Assembly (NCBI RefSeq): GCF_000019905.1
Contig: NC_010556.1
Location: forward strand, 956,001 to 1,020,000
Reading direction: 5' to 3'
DNA length: 64,000 bases
DNA from: Exiguobacterium artemiae 255-15
GTDB taxonomy: Bacteria > Bacillota > Bacilli > Exiguobacteriales > Exiguobacteriaceae
Part shown: positions 2,189 through 31,747 of the stretch, one piece after another
Layout of the letters: the number at the start of each line of letters is the position of its first letter
How positions within the stretch are numbered: the stretch's first letter is position 1
Made by a program: the position numbers and the translations under genes
Notes under the pieces: generated by a model
Told to the model about the DNA's origin: nothing
Database searches by the model: none
Seen by the model: the letters and a program-made list of their open reading frames with translations, nothing else

Positions 2189-3898
2189 ATGATGTTAGCT
2201 GAACTATCGATAAAACAATTTGCAATCATTGACCAGCTACAGATTGATTTCAAAAAAGGCATGACGGTCTTGACCGGAGAAACGGGAGCCGGTAAATCGA
2301 TTGTGCTGGATGCGATTGGATTACTGATCGGTGGTCGCGGTTCTGCTGAATTTGTCCGGTACGGTGAGGACAAGGCGGAATTAGAAGGTCTCTTCATGAT
2401 TGAAGACGGTCATATGGCCTATACGTTAGCAGAAGAGTACGGGATCGACATGGAAGACGGCATGATCATTTTACGCCGTGATTTGTTTGCTTCCGGAAAA
2501 AGTGTCTGTCGCGTCAATCATAAATTAGTCACCTTGACGATTTTACGGGAATTCGGCCGGGCTCTTGTCGATCTCCATGGTCAGCATGAACATCAACATC
2601 TGATGGAAAGTACGTATCATCAAACGATTTTGGATGACTTTGGACATGCGACGATTGCTCCGATTCTCGAACGGTATCAGGAACGTTTTCAGCAGTATGA
2701 AGAAAAACGGGATGCCTTGCAGGCACTGGCGCAAAGTGAACAGGAGTTAGCCCAACGTATTGACTTGTTGTCTTTTCAAACGGAAGAAATCGACAGTGCG
2801 AAACTCCGAACAGGTGAGGAAGAAGATTTATTGAGCGAACGAAACCGGTTGGCAAACTTTGAAAAGCTTCATGCTTCTCTCAGCGCCGCTTACGATGCGT
2901 TACATGACGAACGGCGCGGGATTGATTCCGTCGGAGACGCCATGCGTGAACTGCAACAGGCTTCAAGTATCGATGATGAATTTTCGGGTCAAAGCGATAC
3001 ATTGGCCAATGCATTTTATGCGCTTGAGGAAGTCGGCTATGCGGTCCGGGATCAACTTGAAACTTTGGAGTTTGATTCGAACCGGCTCGACGAAATCGAG
3101 CTTCGTTTATCTGTATTCCAACAACTCAAACGGAAATACGGAGCAACGATAGAAGAAGTCATCGCTTACGGTAAAAAAATCGGTGTGGAACTGGATACGA
3201 TGACGAATCGCGATGAGCGGATTGAAAAACTGAAAACAGAAGTGGAACAGTTGGAGACGGAACTGTTCGACATCGGCGGAGAACTGTCTCAGGCCCGGAG
3301 AAAAGCAGCGCATCATTTAGGTGAAGCGATTCACCTTGAACTCCGTCAGTTGTATATGGAAAAAGCCCGCTTTGAAATCCGCTTCCTCCAAGATGGAAAG
3401 GCGCCGACTTTACGTAAAAACGGAATCGACTTCGTCGAGTTCTACATTATGACGAACGCCGGAGAACCGTTTAAATCACTCGGGAAAGTCGCTTCCGGCG
3501 GCGAATTGTCTCGGATCATGCTCGGACTGAAATCGATTTTCTCACGTTCGGTCGGTGTGGCTTCCATCATCTTTGATGAAGTGGATACAGGGGTATCCGG
3601 ACGTGTCGCACAAGCGATGGCAGAAAAGATTTATCGTCTGTCAATCGACAGTCAAGTCTTGTGTATCACCCACTTGCCGCAAGTTGCATCGATTGCGGAT
3701 CAACACTTGTATATCCGTAAAATCGAAGAAACGGACCGGACGACGACACAGGTCAACGTACTGACGGACTCCGAGCGCGGAAATGAACTGGGACGGATGA
3801 TTTCCGGCACACATATGACGGATTTGACGTTGCGTCATGCGGAAGAACTGATGGAACAGGCAATGAACATGAAGGAATCGCTTAAAAATGGGGTGTAA
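2189..3898 (+). CDS. recN: DNA repair protein RecN
   Basis: A 569-residue SMC-like ATPase acting early in double-strand break repair. It has the N-terminal Walker A (GETGAGKS, about residues 32-39), a long coiled-coil middle (about 150-360) rich in Glu/Gln/Leu, and a C-terminal head with the signature LGKVASGGELSRIMLG and Walker B IIFDEVDTGVSG. Two adjacent ATG codons (2189 and 2192) follow AAGGAG at 2178-2183; the second gives the canonical MLAELSI start, so the true start may be 3 bases later. It ends 3 bases before spo0A. In Bacillus the protease gene spoIVB lies between these two genes, and here it is missing. Confidence 0.96.
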   Translation: MMLAELSIKQFAIIDQLQIDFKKGMTVLTGETGAGKSIVLDAIGLLIGGRGSAEFVRYGEDKAELEGLFMIEDGHMAYTLAEEYGIDMEDGMIILRRDLFASGKSVCRVNHKLVTLTILREFGRALVDLHGQHEHQHLMESTYHQTILDDFGHATIAPILERYQERFQQYEEKRDALQALAQSEQELAQRIDLLSFQTEEIDSAKLRTGEEEDLLSERNRLANFEKLHASLSAAYDALHDERRGIDSVGDAMRELQQASSIDDEFSGQSDTLANAFYALEEVGYAVRDQLETLEFDSNRLDEIELRLSVFQQLKRKYGATIEEVIAYGKKIGVELDTMTNRDERIEKLKTEVEQLETELFDIGGELSQARRKAAHHLGEAIHLELRQLYMEKARFEIRFLQDGKAPTLRKNGIDFVEFYIMTNAGEPFKSLGKVASGGELSRIMLGLKSIFSRSVGVASIIFDEVDTGVSGRVAQAMAEKIYRLSIDSQVLCITHLPQVASIADQHLYIRKIEETDRTTTQVNVLTDSERGNELGRMISGTHMTDLTLRHAEELMEQAMNMKESLKNGV

Positions 3899-3901
3899 CA
3901 A

Positions 3902-4615
3902 TTGATTAGAGTCGGGATTGCGGATGATAACCGAGAAATGGTCGAATTGATTCGGCAACATCTATCTGCCCAAGAAGACATGGAAGTAGTATGCGTTGCC
4001 TATAACGGAGAAAGTTGTCTTGAAAAATTAGGACATGTCGAGACCGATGTGCTGTTATTGGATATCATCATGCCCCATCTCGATGGACTGGGTGTCTTGG
4101 AGGCCTTGATGAACCAAAAGAGCAGTCCGGCTGTCATCATGTTAAGTGCGTTCGGGAAGGATGAAGTATCGCAACAGGCTGTTTCACTGGGCGCTGCCTA
4201 CTTTTTATTGAAACCGTTCAGTTTAGATCAACTCGTCAACAAAATTCGTCTGGTCGTGAACGGCGTACAGCCAAGCCAAGCAGAACCGGTCGAAACGAAA
4301 GTCGGCACCACGCTCCGGGAAATCGGAATTGCGCCGCACATCAAAGGATTCACGTACTTGAAAGAGGCGGTCTTGTTGGTGCTGGAACGGGAAGATTTAT
4401 TGGGGCTGATTACAAAAGAGCTATACCCGACGATTGCTAGAAAACATCAAACGACTGCTTCGCGTGTCGAGCGGGCGATGCGCCATGCGATTAAGTCGGC
4501 CTGGAAAGAAGGCATGAATGAACATACATTGTTTAACGGACGAATTGAACAGGAGAAAAGTCCGAAAAATTCCGAGTTCATCTCTTATGTATCGAACCAT
4601 ATGAACGGATCTTAA
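3902..4615 (+). CDS. spo0A: Response regulator Spo0A
   Basis: A 237-residue protein, shorter than the roughly 267 of B. subtilis, mainly through a reduced linker. The N-terminal receiver has the acidic pocket D8/D9, phosphoacceptor D54 in LLLDIIMPHLDG, S at the usual Thr switch position (VIMLSAFG) and Lys in FLLKPFS. The C-terminal Spo0A domain retains EIGIAPHIKGFTYL and the recognition helix TTASRVERAMRHAIKSAW nearly unchanged, plus the terminal NSEFI segment. It begins with TTG at 3902, 3 bases after recN, so it is probably co-translated. Spo0A is the sporulation master regulator. In non-sporulating relatives it would be expected to control biofilm or transition-state genes, which is inference. 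Confidence 0.95.
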   Translation: MIRVGIADDNREMVELIRQHLSAQEDMEVVCVAYNGESCLEKLGHVETDVLLLDIIMPHLDGLGVLEALMNQKSSPAVIMLSAFGKDEVSQQAVSLGAAYFLLKPFSLDQLVNKIRLVVNGVQPSQAEPVETKVGTTLREIGIAPHIKGFTYLKEAVLLVLEREDLLGLITKELYPTIARKHQTTASRVERAMRHAIKSAWKEGMNEHTLFNGRIEQEKSPKNSEFISYVSNHMNGS

Positions 4616-4625
4616 TAGAGCGGTA

Positions 4626-4673
4626 ATCAGGTTTTGACGGATGAAGAAAATCCGGAGAAGCCTGGTTTTTTTT
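4626..4673 (+). terminator. Terminator after spo0A
   Basis: An imperfect long hairpin (TCAGGTTTTGACGGAT against ATCCGGAGAAGCCTGG) ends in eight T residues. It closes the recN-spo0A transcript and isolates the following noncoding unit. Confidence 0.82.
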
Positions 4674-4710
4674 AATACAAATAAAAAACTAAATATTCAT
4701 TAAATAAATG

Positions 4711-4738
4711 TTGCACAAACTGAAATGTTTGTTATAAT
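4711..4738 (+). promoter_or_regulatory. Sigma-A promoter of the large noncoding RNA
   Basis: TTGCAC at 4711-4716 and TATAAT at 4733-4738 are separated by 16 bases, with a TG dinucleotide (4730-4731) one base before the -10, making an extended -10 element. The predicted transcript start is near 4745. No convincing protein gene follows for about 750 bases on this strand. Confidence 0.85.
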
Positions 4739-4990
4739 AAAGGTACCAAATGATTTGGAAAGACGTCAGATGAACGTCGAGTCGAATTGGTTCCCGGAAA
4801 ACCGTTCAACGAATTTCATCTCAGGTCGCCACCTGTAAACGGCTCAAGAATGATGGATGACATTCTCTTGGTAGAATTCTTATCAAGGCATTTCATATCT
4901 TTTTCGGATGATTTATCTCAAACAGATATGAGACTTCATGATTTCGAAGCAAGGAAAAAGTGAAGGGTAACGTAAATTAAACGTCCAAAG

Positions 4991-5178
4991 CAAGACCAAG
5001 CAAGACCAAGCAAGACCAAGCAAGACCAAGCAAGACCAAGCAAGACCAAGCAAGACCAAGCAAGACCAAGCAAGACCAAGCAAGACCAAGCAAGACCAAG
5101 CAAGGCCAAGCAAGACCAAGCAAGACCAAGCAAGACCAAGCAAGACCAAGCAAGACCAAGCAAGACCAAGCAAGACCA
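4991..5178 (+). repeat. Tandem 10-nt repeat CAAGACCAAG, 18.8 copies
   Basis: Eighteen complete copies and a partial copy of CAAGACCAAG run from 4991 to 5178. A single variant (CAAGGCCAAG) sits at 5101-5110. The plus strand carries no T across the array and the unit has no self-complementarity, so as RNA it would be an unstructured A/C-rich linker between two structured halves. The copy number is likely to vary by slippage. Open frames read from the opposite strand through it are a by-product of the repeat. Confidence 0.97.
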
Positions 5179-5450
5179 GTAACAAGTACAGTTCGTGAAA
5201 AGGAGTGTTGTCTAGCAGTGAATGTTAGCAACCGAATGATCGACTGCAACAAGCGGATGACATTACGCTTCACCTAGGTCCAAGTAAAGTCAGATACTGG
5301 AGTAGTTTTACCTTTCTATCGATCGCTCGATAGCCAAATCTGATTTCTTTCAACCTCTTCATTAAGAGGACAACCTATGGTTTTGAAGTACACGAATAGT
5401 TCTGCTATGAGAGGAGTTCATCCGTAAGTGAAACCAACTTTATATGAATA

Positions 5451-5495
5451 AAAGGTCCCGCGCTTGAAATGAGTTCAAGAGATGGGGACCTTTTT
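5451..5495 (+). terminator. Terminator of the noncoding RNA, bidirectional
   Basis: AAAGGTCCC (5451-5459) pairs with GGGGACCTTT (5484-5493) around an inner CTTGAA/TTCAAG stem, then a T run. Read on the other strand it also ends in a T-rich run and would serve the converging DUF2627 gene. Confidence 0.88.
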
Positions 5496-5501
5496 GTGTG
5501 T

Positions 5502-5756
5502 TTATTTTTTTTGATAGCGCTCCGATACTTTGCCTCGTTTACGATCGCGGTAAAAGACATAACCGGCGACGAAGCCGATTCCGCCGATGGCTAACGCCAG
5601 GCCGGAAAATCCTTGTAATACATATACATAGGCAGAATCCCCTAGATACCGGAAGGGGAATTGCGCTTTTAAGAAAACACTGTCCCGCATCAGCTTGATG
5701 CCGATGGCACCGATGATACCCGGAATGAGTAAAGATAATAGACCGATGATTCGCAT
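5502..5756 (-). CDS. DUF2627 small membrane protein (YqzF-like)
   Basis: An 84-residue protein with two predicted membrane segments: residues about 2-20 (IIGLLSLLIPGIIGAIGIK) and about 44-66 (a Gly/Ala/Leu-rich stretch ending GFVAGYVFY). A basic tail, RDRKRGK, follows. It resembles B. subtilis YqzF, which sits in the same neighbourhood. The start is the ATG at 5756 because AAAGGGG lies 8 bases upstream; an earlier in-frame ATG at 5798 lacks such a site. Its function is unknown. It converges on the noncoding RNA and shares its terminator. Confidence 0.8.
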   Translation of the reverse strand: MRIIGLLSLLIPGIIGAIGIKLMRDSVFLKAQFPFRYLGDSAYVYVLQGFSGLALAIGGIGFVAGYVFYRDRKRGKVSERYQKK

Positions 5757-5877
5757 GATTGTGACCCCTTTCCAAGCGTATTGTATCAGAAAATCCATAT
5801 GACTGCGAATTCGATTTGCCCTCCTGTTTTAATACAGGTAGGATAAAGATGTAAGCAGTTTCAAAGGGGGAATTAGA

Positions 5878-15595: not shown

Positions 15596-15617
15596 AAAAA
15601 ACAATTAAACAATACAG

Positions 15618-15877
15618 ACGCAATGACGAAGAGAAGTAACCTATGAAACGATTCAAGAGAGCTGATGGATGGTGCGAATCAGTATCGGGAAACAGGTGAA
15701 TGGACTTCTGAGCATCAGACCGAACTTATAGTAGGCTCTGACGGGTACCTTCCGTTATCAAGGACGACGAATCAGGGTGACCGGTTCGTTCGAGGGGACT
15801 AGCATTAGTCAACGAAGGTGGTACCGCGGGTTTTCCCGTCCTTCATGTTTATCATGAATGGACGGGAAAACCCTTTT
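15618..15877 (+). ncRNA. T-box riboswitch 1 (tryptophan)
   Basis: Stem I contains AGAAGT (15632-15637) pairing with ACTTCT (15704-15709); the UGG specifier is at 15701-15703, immediately before the descending strand. The distal arm with GGATGGTGCGA lies at 15667-15677. The T-box sequence AAGGTGGTACCGCG is at 15815-15828. The terminator GGGTTTTCCCGTCC/GGACGGGAAAACCC (15828-15873) is followed by TTTT. Uncharged tRNA-Trp should stabilise the antiterminator and allow read-through. Confidence 0.93.
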
Positions 15878-15899
15878 CGTATTTAATTGAATAAATAAA

Positions 15900-16167
15900 T
15901 CGATGAATGAGTTAAGTAATCAGACAAATCGTTGTTTCAGAGAGCGGAAGAATGGTGGGACTTCCGTACAAGGATGTGTGATGAATGGTCTCATGAGAGC
16001 AGGACTGAAAGGTAAGTAGGTCGTGACGGAAGCCCCCGTTATCTCAGGCTACGATGTCTCGTCAAGACGCATCGGAAAGAGTGGGAACGTACTTCGTTCC
16101 AATTGTGAGGTGGCACCGCGAGTCTATCGTCCTCCATACGGCATTTGCTGTATGGAGGACTTTTTTT
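15900..16167 (+). ncRNA. T-box riboswitch 2 (tryptophan)
   Basis: A second complete T-box follows the first by about 20 bases. ATGAG (15907-15911) pairs with CTCAT (15990-15994) just after a UGG specifier (15986-15988). The distal arm with AATGGTGGGA is at 15951-15960. The T-box sequence GTGAGGTGGCACCGCG is at 16105-16120 and the terminator GTCCTCCATAC/GTATGGAGGAC at 16129-16160 ends in seven T. Both switches must read uncharged tRNA-Trp for trpE transcription, so termination is imposed twice. Confidence 0.93.
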
Positions 16168-31431: not shown

Positions 31432-31629
31432 TGTCAGATTCCTCCGTAAGTTAAGTATCAGGTACTAATTTCAGTCTAATCGACCGGTGATGGAAGAGAA
31501 TCGGTCTCAAGGACGAGCCGGCATCGACCTTCCGTCATGTTCATTGTACAGAAAAACAATGGAAAGAAGGGGGGCGGGTTCAGAATTGAATGAAATCATG
31601 TTACACTTGAAACAAATCAAATAGCGACC

Positions 31630-31714
31630 ACTAGGGGAGTCAGTAGGCTGACTGAGACGACGGAGACGTGCGGACCCTTTGAACCTGATTAAGTTTGGAC
31701 TTACGGAGGGAAGT
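31630..31714 (+). ncRNA. TPP riboswitch (THI element)
   Basis: Core blocks are in order: CTAGGGGAGT, GGCTGACTGAGA, GGACCCTTTGAACCTGATTA and TACGGAGGGAAGT. A 12-base-pair terminator hairpin follows at 31748-31779 before tenA. TPP binding should terminate transcription when thiamine is plentiful. Confidence 0.93.
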
Positions 31715-31747
31715 GGCGTGACAGATCCTCTTTTTCTGGTCTTTTCA

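Follow-up and report, generated by a model that had tools for sequence, protein, structure and literature searches.

The interval that follows spo0A in Exiguobacterium artemiae 255-15 raises a simple question: does it hold a gene, and if so, of what kind? The window analysed here is a stretch of 64,000 nucleotides from a genome that has 3 contigs and 3,040,786 bases in all, with 3,034,136 in the first contig. By Pfam, its genes run in the order dxs (C-terminal part), an FtsJ/S4 protein (tlyA), argR, recN and spo0A (3902-4615); the gene names are our own assignment, with which the Pfam search of the neighbours agrees. On the far side of the interval lies a DUF2627 gene (5502-5798, Pfam) on the opposite strand, followed by a sigma-54 activator and a PTA_PTB enzyme (Pfam). 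Passages of PMC2615787 describe two plasmids of 1765 and 4885 bp in E. sibiricum 255-15, and call spo0A an unexpected regulator there because the organism lacks spoIIA and spoIIG and most likely forms no spores. A first-pass annotation had proposed that the interval encodes a large structured noncoding RNA, either a divergent OLE RNA or a new class. What looks like an RNA gene does fill the interval between spo0A and DUF2627, and the second of these identities is the one that the comparative evidence favours.

Distribution and conservation

The predicted transcript runs on the plus strand from 4745, a start set from the -10 box, to 5495, the end of the terminator T run, and measures about 750 nt with a decanucleotide repeat and 560 nt without it, as the first-pass annotation had estimated. 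The element occurs in all 38 family genomes (one of which, G061, is 8% contaminated), spanning two genera, g1 and g2, of Exiguobacterium in the wide sense, and its 3' half has one match per genome in 38 of 38. Nucleotide identity is 72-100% within g1, 83-99% within g2 and 55-62% between the genera; the Spo0A proteins of g2 have 55-57% of residues in common with that of the window. No examined genome of the group is without the element; the group can be cultured, and passages of PMC10837837 characterise its clades as psychrophilic, saline and thermophilic.

Searches at several depths confine the element to this family. A DNA search of 61 genomes with the segment matched 38, comprising 37 of its own family and one outside (G047), where the match is weak (39 bases, E 5e-4); a match at a second place in G027 is also weak (31 bases, E 2e-4). 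Among 398 Bacilli genomes, covariance model R1, built like model R2 from the homologues, gave 38 matches, all in the family and none in the 360 non-family genomes, and across 398 genomes of the phylum it matched the element's own genome alone. Outside the family, model R2 gave a single weak match (G389, E 0.0096, 28.8 bits), which is at chance level, as 3 to 4 such matches are expected over 360 genomes at E<=0.01 each. The R1 and R2 searches scored 8 candidates per genome under strict filters and may miss weak distant relatives. An exact pattern taken from the 3' domain, run against 84,980 genomes at one per species, returned 24 stretches, all from Exiguobacterium. A mobile origin was considered and rejected, since neither the plasmid nor the phage searches returned a match to the element.

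Predicted promoter, terminator and possible regulation

The element has a predicted promoter of its own (4711-4738, plus strand). Its -10 box, TATAAT at 4733-4738, is preceded at a distance of one base by TG, which gives an extended -10 (TGtTATAAT), and its -35 box, TTGCAC at 4711-4716, is weak (3 of 6 matches) and stands 16 nt from the -10. The transcript would end at an intrinsic terminator (5450-5495, plus strand) with the inner stem CTTGAA/TTCAAG, 7 bases from the DUF2627 stop, and the convergent DUF2627 transcript may stop at this terminator too. TATAAT and the terminator are both found in 38 of 38 homologues, where they served as the anchors used to excise the element. Both signals had been called in the first-pass annotation, and both are borne out. 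Generic promoter and terminator scans report neither of them, probably because the -35 box has only 3 of 6 matches and the terminator stem contains an inner hairpin.

The spacer between the -35 and -10 boxes contains an inverted repeat (ACAAAC..GTTTGT). The spacer itself (4717-4732; AAACTGAAATGTTTGT, which belongs to the inverted repeat) is nearly invariant across g1, the deep branch L020 included, and looks as if it were bound by a regulator; in g2 homologues the spacer is variable. A scan with the general CcpA consensus places a CcpA-like site (<=2 mismatches) upstream of 29 of the 38 copies. In L011-L020 this site begins 44 bases ahead of the -10, and in all 19 g2 copies it overlaps the -35; it is absent upstream of the nine other g1 copies, that of the window among them. 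In 3000 single-base shuffles of one upstream stretch, sites with no mismatch arose 0 times, with one mismatch 5 times and with two mismatches 60 times. CcpA-type sites upstream of most copies would link the RNA to carbon supply.

Comparative evidence for a conserved fold

The main evidence for the predicted structure is comparative. Consensus folds were computed separately for the two genera with no hand-set structure, yielding 141 pairs in g1 and 146 in g2; 41 of these are exactly the same in both folds, and 65 agree if an offset of one column is allowed. In the slid control (4 to 60 columns), the folds have a mean of 0.5 and a maximum of 8 exact pairs in common. The helices common to both genus folds are P1, P2, one pseudoknot stem, P6, the inner part of P7, P9, P11 and the inner stem of the terminator.

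A second line of evidence comes from hand-set structures, which were drawn partly by eye from the sequences on which they were then tested. In these, 99.3% of cells pair in the 5' part, 99.7% in the 3' part and 88.8% in the middle, as against 29-43%, 39-57% and 30-64%, respectively, when the same structures are slid. Percent paired and the covariation score lie above all 500 shuffles and all slides in every part. Under a null that preserves the tree and moves substitutions between columns, 14 of 62 hand-chosen pairs reach E<0.05. The summed scores of the 5', 3' and middle parts (4.11, 2.03 and 1.44) compare with null means of -2.52, -1.39 and -1.49 and null maxima of -0.72, -0.12 and -0.18, and are above all 300 null runs in each part. 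Reconstruction along the tree gives 15 two-sided events, 36 one-sided events that keep the pair and 7 that break it. The pair tests did not count P3, where the alignment between the genera is poor, or P10, which is in a different register in each genus.

The result for hand-chosen pairs is not matched by a blind covariation test. An all-against-all test on the full alignment listed 22 pairs with E up to 20, none of them significant, and the best standard pair has E 7.25. The reason is that most double changes fall on the single split between the genera; with one deep split and very many column pairs, such a test has little power, and we therefore used the structure-restricted and fold-comparison tests. 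Some measures also fail to exceed the shuffle control: the observed count of pairs with two-sided changes is reached by 322 of 500 shuffles in the 3' part and by 308 of 500 in the middle, and further pair types are no more numerous than among shuffles, whichever part is taken. Covariation also says little on PKa, PKc and P12, because the first two are invariant and the sole variation in P12 is G-U against A-U. Folding energy is only moderately better than that of shuffled sequences (z of -2.3 from 20 shuffles, and -2.7 and -2.2 from 100 each, for three homologues) and is weak evidence.

Predicted domains and the variable linker

All parts of the predicted structure lie on the plus strand. The 5' domain would be a series of hairpins around an H-type pseudoknot. 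It opens with P1 (4746-4758; CCAAA/TTTGG, CCAAG/CTTGG in g2) and P2 (4762-4778; GACGT/ACGTC, AGCGT/ACGCT in g2), the loop of which, AGATGA, may form an invariant pseudoknot, PKa, with TCATCT at 4816-4821. P3 (4789-4803) carries the palindrome CCGG (4794-4797), which is found in 38 of 38 copies, with the form UCCGGA in 28; its stem in g1 changes between GGT/ACC, GGA/TCC and GTG/CAC. The H-type pseudoknot itself (4822-4843) combines CAGG/CCTG (4822-4825 with 4832-4835) and GCC/GGC (4828-4830 with 4841-4843). Each of its stems has one pair with E<0.05. In the second stem, pair four is a mismatch in 6 of 33 distinct rows as well as in the window copy.

Further along, P4 (4847-4866) pairs AGAATG with CATTCT, or GAGGTG with CATCTC or CACCTC in g2, and P5 (4867-4887) is predicted in g1 only. 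P6 (4904-4920) has the core GAT/ATC, CGAC/GTCG in g2, and includes one pair that never forms (26 of 26). The inner stem of P7 (4934-4965; loop GAAGC(T/A)AG) covaries, and its outer stem is mismatched in many rows. We considered a T-loop for UUCGA in the P7 loop and dropped it because the bases vary.

Between P7 and the 3' domain the element is elastic. The linker, taken from the P7 loop to AAAAGGAGTGTTGTC with the 3' strand of P7 included, measures 34-36 nt in g2 and mostly 44-48 nt in g1, and reaches 78 to 243 nt in seven g1 genomes, in which the extra length consists of the decanucleotide repeat or its relics. In the window the repeat occupies 4988-5178 with 19.1 copies of AAGCAAGACC at 98% matches. 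Exact 10-mers occur in just 5 of the 38 genomes (17, 16, 16, 10 and 5 copies), L008 retains a relic, L007 has a 9-base unit, and the repeat is absent in 31, which rules it out as a needed part. The array in L007 (genome G009) has thus changed its unit length relative to the 10 bases of its relatives. The rarity of the repeat and the varying length of the linker point to expansion of a tolerant linker and not to the core of the element; the repeat is a lineage-specific expansion of the variable linker that joins two predicted structured domains.

The linker ends at AAAAGGAGTGTTGTC (5198-5212), which is identical in 38 of 38 copies and contains a Shine-Dalgarno-like AAAGGAG; its first part is unpaired in the g1 consensus fold. 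The stretch at about 5180-5255 has no settled structure. The 3' domain (5255-5423) is predicted to be compact, with possible further pseudoknots. P8 (5268-5279 with 5373-5388) changes from CTTCA/TGAAG to CTCCA/TGGAG within g1 and reads ACATGA/TCATGT in g2, with outer mismatches in L020 and inner ones in 7 of 19 g2 copies. Further helices are P9 (5290-5295 with 5338-5343), P10 (5316-5321 with 5328-5333) and P11 (5354-5369), and P8 would be crossed by P12 (5345-5351 with 5409-5415) as a possible pseudoknot. PKc (GGATGA/TCATCC, 5255-5260 with 5418-5423) is nearly invariant. The helices drawn roughly agree with the initial count of at least ten local hairpins.

Proposed function and alternative readings

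The computational observations are conservation, one match per genome, a fixed neighbourhood, pairing that includes both stems of one pseudoknot, and the absence of a frame common to the genera. We think it probable that the element is a standalone structured noncoding RNA gene, restricted to Exiguobacterium as far as tested, whose product acts in trans as a preformed scaffold. One RNA of about 550-750 nt would be transcribed from its own predicted promoter to its terminator, with the linker between the 5' and 3' domains free to vary in length, and would act alone or with proteins, neither as a cis-regulator nor as an mRNA. Action in trans is suggested solely by autonomy, in that the RNA and its promoter stay together in changed neighbourhoods. 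For an element that is apparently autonomous, retained by all species examined, conserved in shape more than in sequence and devoid of a frame common to the genera, the simplest interpretation is a structural RNA that acts in trans. The large share of pairing and pseudoknots in what is conserved makes a scaffold, formed with protein, with further copies of the RNA or with both, more probable than antisense pairing.

Antisense pairing is nonetheless the foremost alternative, and itself a rather unlikely one: the RNA would be a trans-acting riboregulator of the RNAIII type, with exposed loops that pair with mRNAs. RNAIII is of similar size (514 nt), the invariance of AAAAGGAGTGTTGTC in all 38 copies and its partly unpaired state in the g1 fold would suit such a loop, and the CcpA-like sites upstream of 29 of the 38 copies suggest regulated expression. 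RNAIII-type antisense RNAs usually offer a C-rich seed, however, and the conserved stretch here is purine-rich and Shine-Dalgarno-like; conserved, partly pseudoknotted pairing also suggests that shape matters.

The same ribosome-binding-like AAAGGAG could instead serve a bifunctional or peptide-coding transcript, a reading we regard as very improbable. Across both strands of the 38 elements there are 143 frames of 30-108 aa, and at E<=0.1 they give 133 short cross-genus matches, the best shown having E 0.003 over 23 residues. These weak matches probably reflect a common DNA motif read in one frame. At E<=0.001, none of 2068 hits among frames of at least 30 aa joins the two genera, and the longest plus-strand frame in g1 ranges from 73 aa (L009) down to none of at least 30 aa (L008). 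A protein-coding reading for frames of this size is thereby ruled out, in agreement with the first-pass view that the unit holds no credible gene, and sequence changes within the element track base pairing instead.

A cis element, either a structured 3' tail of the spo0A mRNA or an antisense or terminator region for DUF2627, is no more credible. Its appeal lies in the neighbourhood, as spo0A and DUF2627 flank the RNA on either side in 37 of 38 loci and the terminator stands 7 bases from the DUF2627 stop. The predicted RNA ends ahead of DUF2627, however, and spo0A has a terminator-like sequence of its own at about 4629-4675 (identified by eye and not in the generic scan list). In addition, RNA and promoter remain together where another gene separates them from spo0A. 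In L011-L019 the spacing between RNA and spo0A is much larger than elsewhere, and in L011, where a RibD_C gene intervenes, the promoter accompanies the RNA; it does so too in the 38th locus, L020, in which DUF2627 is present, spo0A is outside the stretch examined and a transposase-like gene lies upstream of the RNA. The RibD_C-domain gene of L011 spans 561-1217 on the minus strand, with similarly large spacing in L012-L019, and the transposase-like gene of L020 (genome G008), of IS3 type by eye, spans 2196-3059 on the minus strand upstream of the RNA promoter. The gene for a small membrane protein that the first-pass annotation noted beside the RNA would be this DUF2627 gene; it is convergent, and nothing was found that ties it to the RNA.

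A divergent OLE RNA is barely conceivable: a comparable length, a position near the dxs-tlyA-argR-recN block (where, as first proposed, OLE does occur in the two OLE genomes checked, G055 and G058) and a family without OLE would fit, but the OLE model (RF01071) matches 0 of 37 family genomes as against 9 of 24 other Bacilli (E 9e-147 to 4e-159, all below 1e-146), the segment has no OLE match even at E<=10, and OLE in those two genomes lies at its usual site upstream of dxs, not after recN and spo0A as here.

Comparison with known large RNAs

Against the 4227 Rfam models, the segment matches no family at its cut-off, and at E<=10 it has only four unrelated chance-level matches (best E 0.83); none of the models for ROOL, GOLLD, raiA and HEARO matches. 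RNase P RNA and 6S RNA were set aside, as both are found elsewhere in the same genome. Elsewhere in the window, Rfam identifies two tandem T-box leaders 47 bases apart (15614-15846 and 15894-16137, plus strand) and a TPP riboswitch (31623-31728, plus strand). The element shows pairing beyond the tree-preserving null and no conserved frame, with a blind all-pairs test that is non-significant, and the predicted RNA would be a new family of large structured noncoding RNAs, absent from the Rfam copy used. The first-pass reading of a large structured RNA of its own class is supported by conservation, conserved pairing and the absence of a frame common to both genera. Among the matches listed in a search of open-licence papers, no title, abstract opening or passage describes this RNA; PMC10837837 predicts Exiguobacterium small RNAs by program, and its passages do not name the locus.

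The large structured RNAs known from bacteria are few, and for several of them no function has been assigned. This RNA offers a new case in which to ask about the role of such RNAs and how widespread self-assembly is in this group. One copy per genome would make deletion or in vitro transcription straightforward and the case a convenient one, and the alignment of two genera at 55-62% identity is a workable basis for structure probing and for building models. Among chromosomal RNAs, RNAIII of Staphylococcus is likewise long and multi-hairpin; the RNA described here differs in having no Rfam match and no frame common to both genera. The raiA motif RNA, or ModT, is also a structured noncoding RNA of Bacillota, but passages of PMC11706538 place it in more than 2,500 species, whereas the present RNA has been found in Exiguobacterium only and has no Rfam match.

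There are likenesses to OLE, which passages of PMC11332333 and PMC12265935 describe as an RNA of about 600 nt in extremophile-rich Bacillota, with its biochemical function unknown, and which has a general gene block in common with this RNA in the two genomes checked. The differences are that neither sequence nor model matches, that the site is another one, and that the OLE ribonucleoprotein is membrane-associated with OapA (PMC11332333). OLE dimerises through contacts that include a kissing loop whose core is palindromic, and OLE and GOLLD chains are joined by symmetric kissing loops with such cores, according to passages of PMC12286853. The same source describes ROOL and GOLLD as ordered RNAs interrupted by a variable disordered linker, with symmetric kissing loops joining the chains.

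The architecture resembles that of ROOL and GOLLD: two conserved domains flank a variable linker, and a palindrome is conserved in one of the hairpins. GOLLD, and by the wording of PMC12286853 also ROOL, is encoded by phages and prophages, whereas the present RNA is chromosomal and has no phage or plasmid match. This resemblance, including the CCGG found in the P3 region of 38 of 38 copies, is a lead, not a test. A self-assembling RNA is a tentative and, in our estimate, unlikely extension of the scaffold reading: two or more copies of a pseudoknotted two-domain particle would join through the palindromic CCGG of P3 in a symmetric kissing loop, the hypervariable linker (34 to 243 nt) would hang free like the disordered linkers of ROOL and GOLLD, and the RNA would take the place of OLE in Exiguobacterium, whose genomes are without it.
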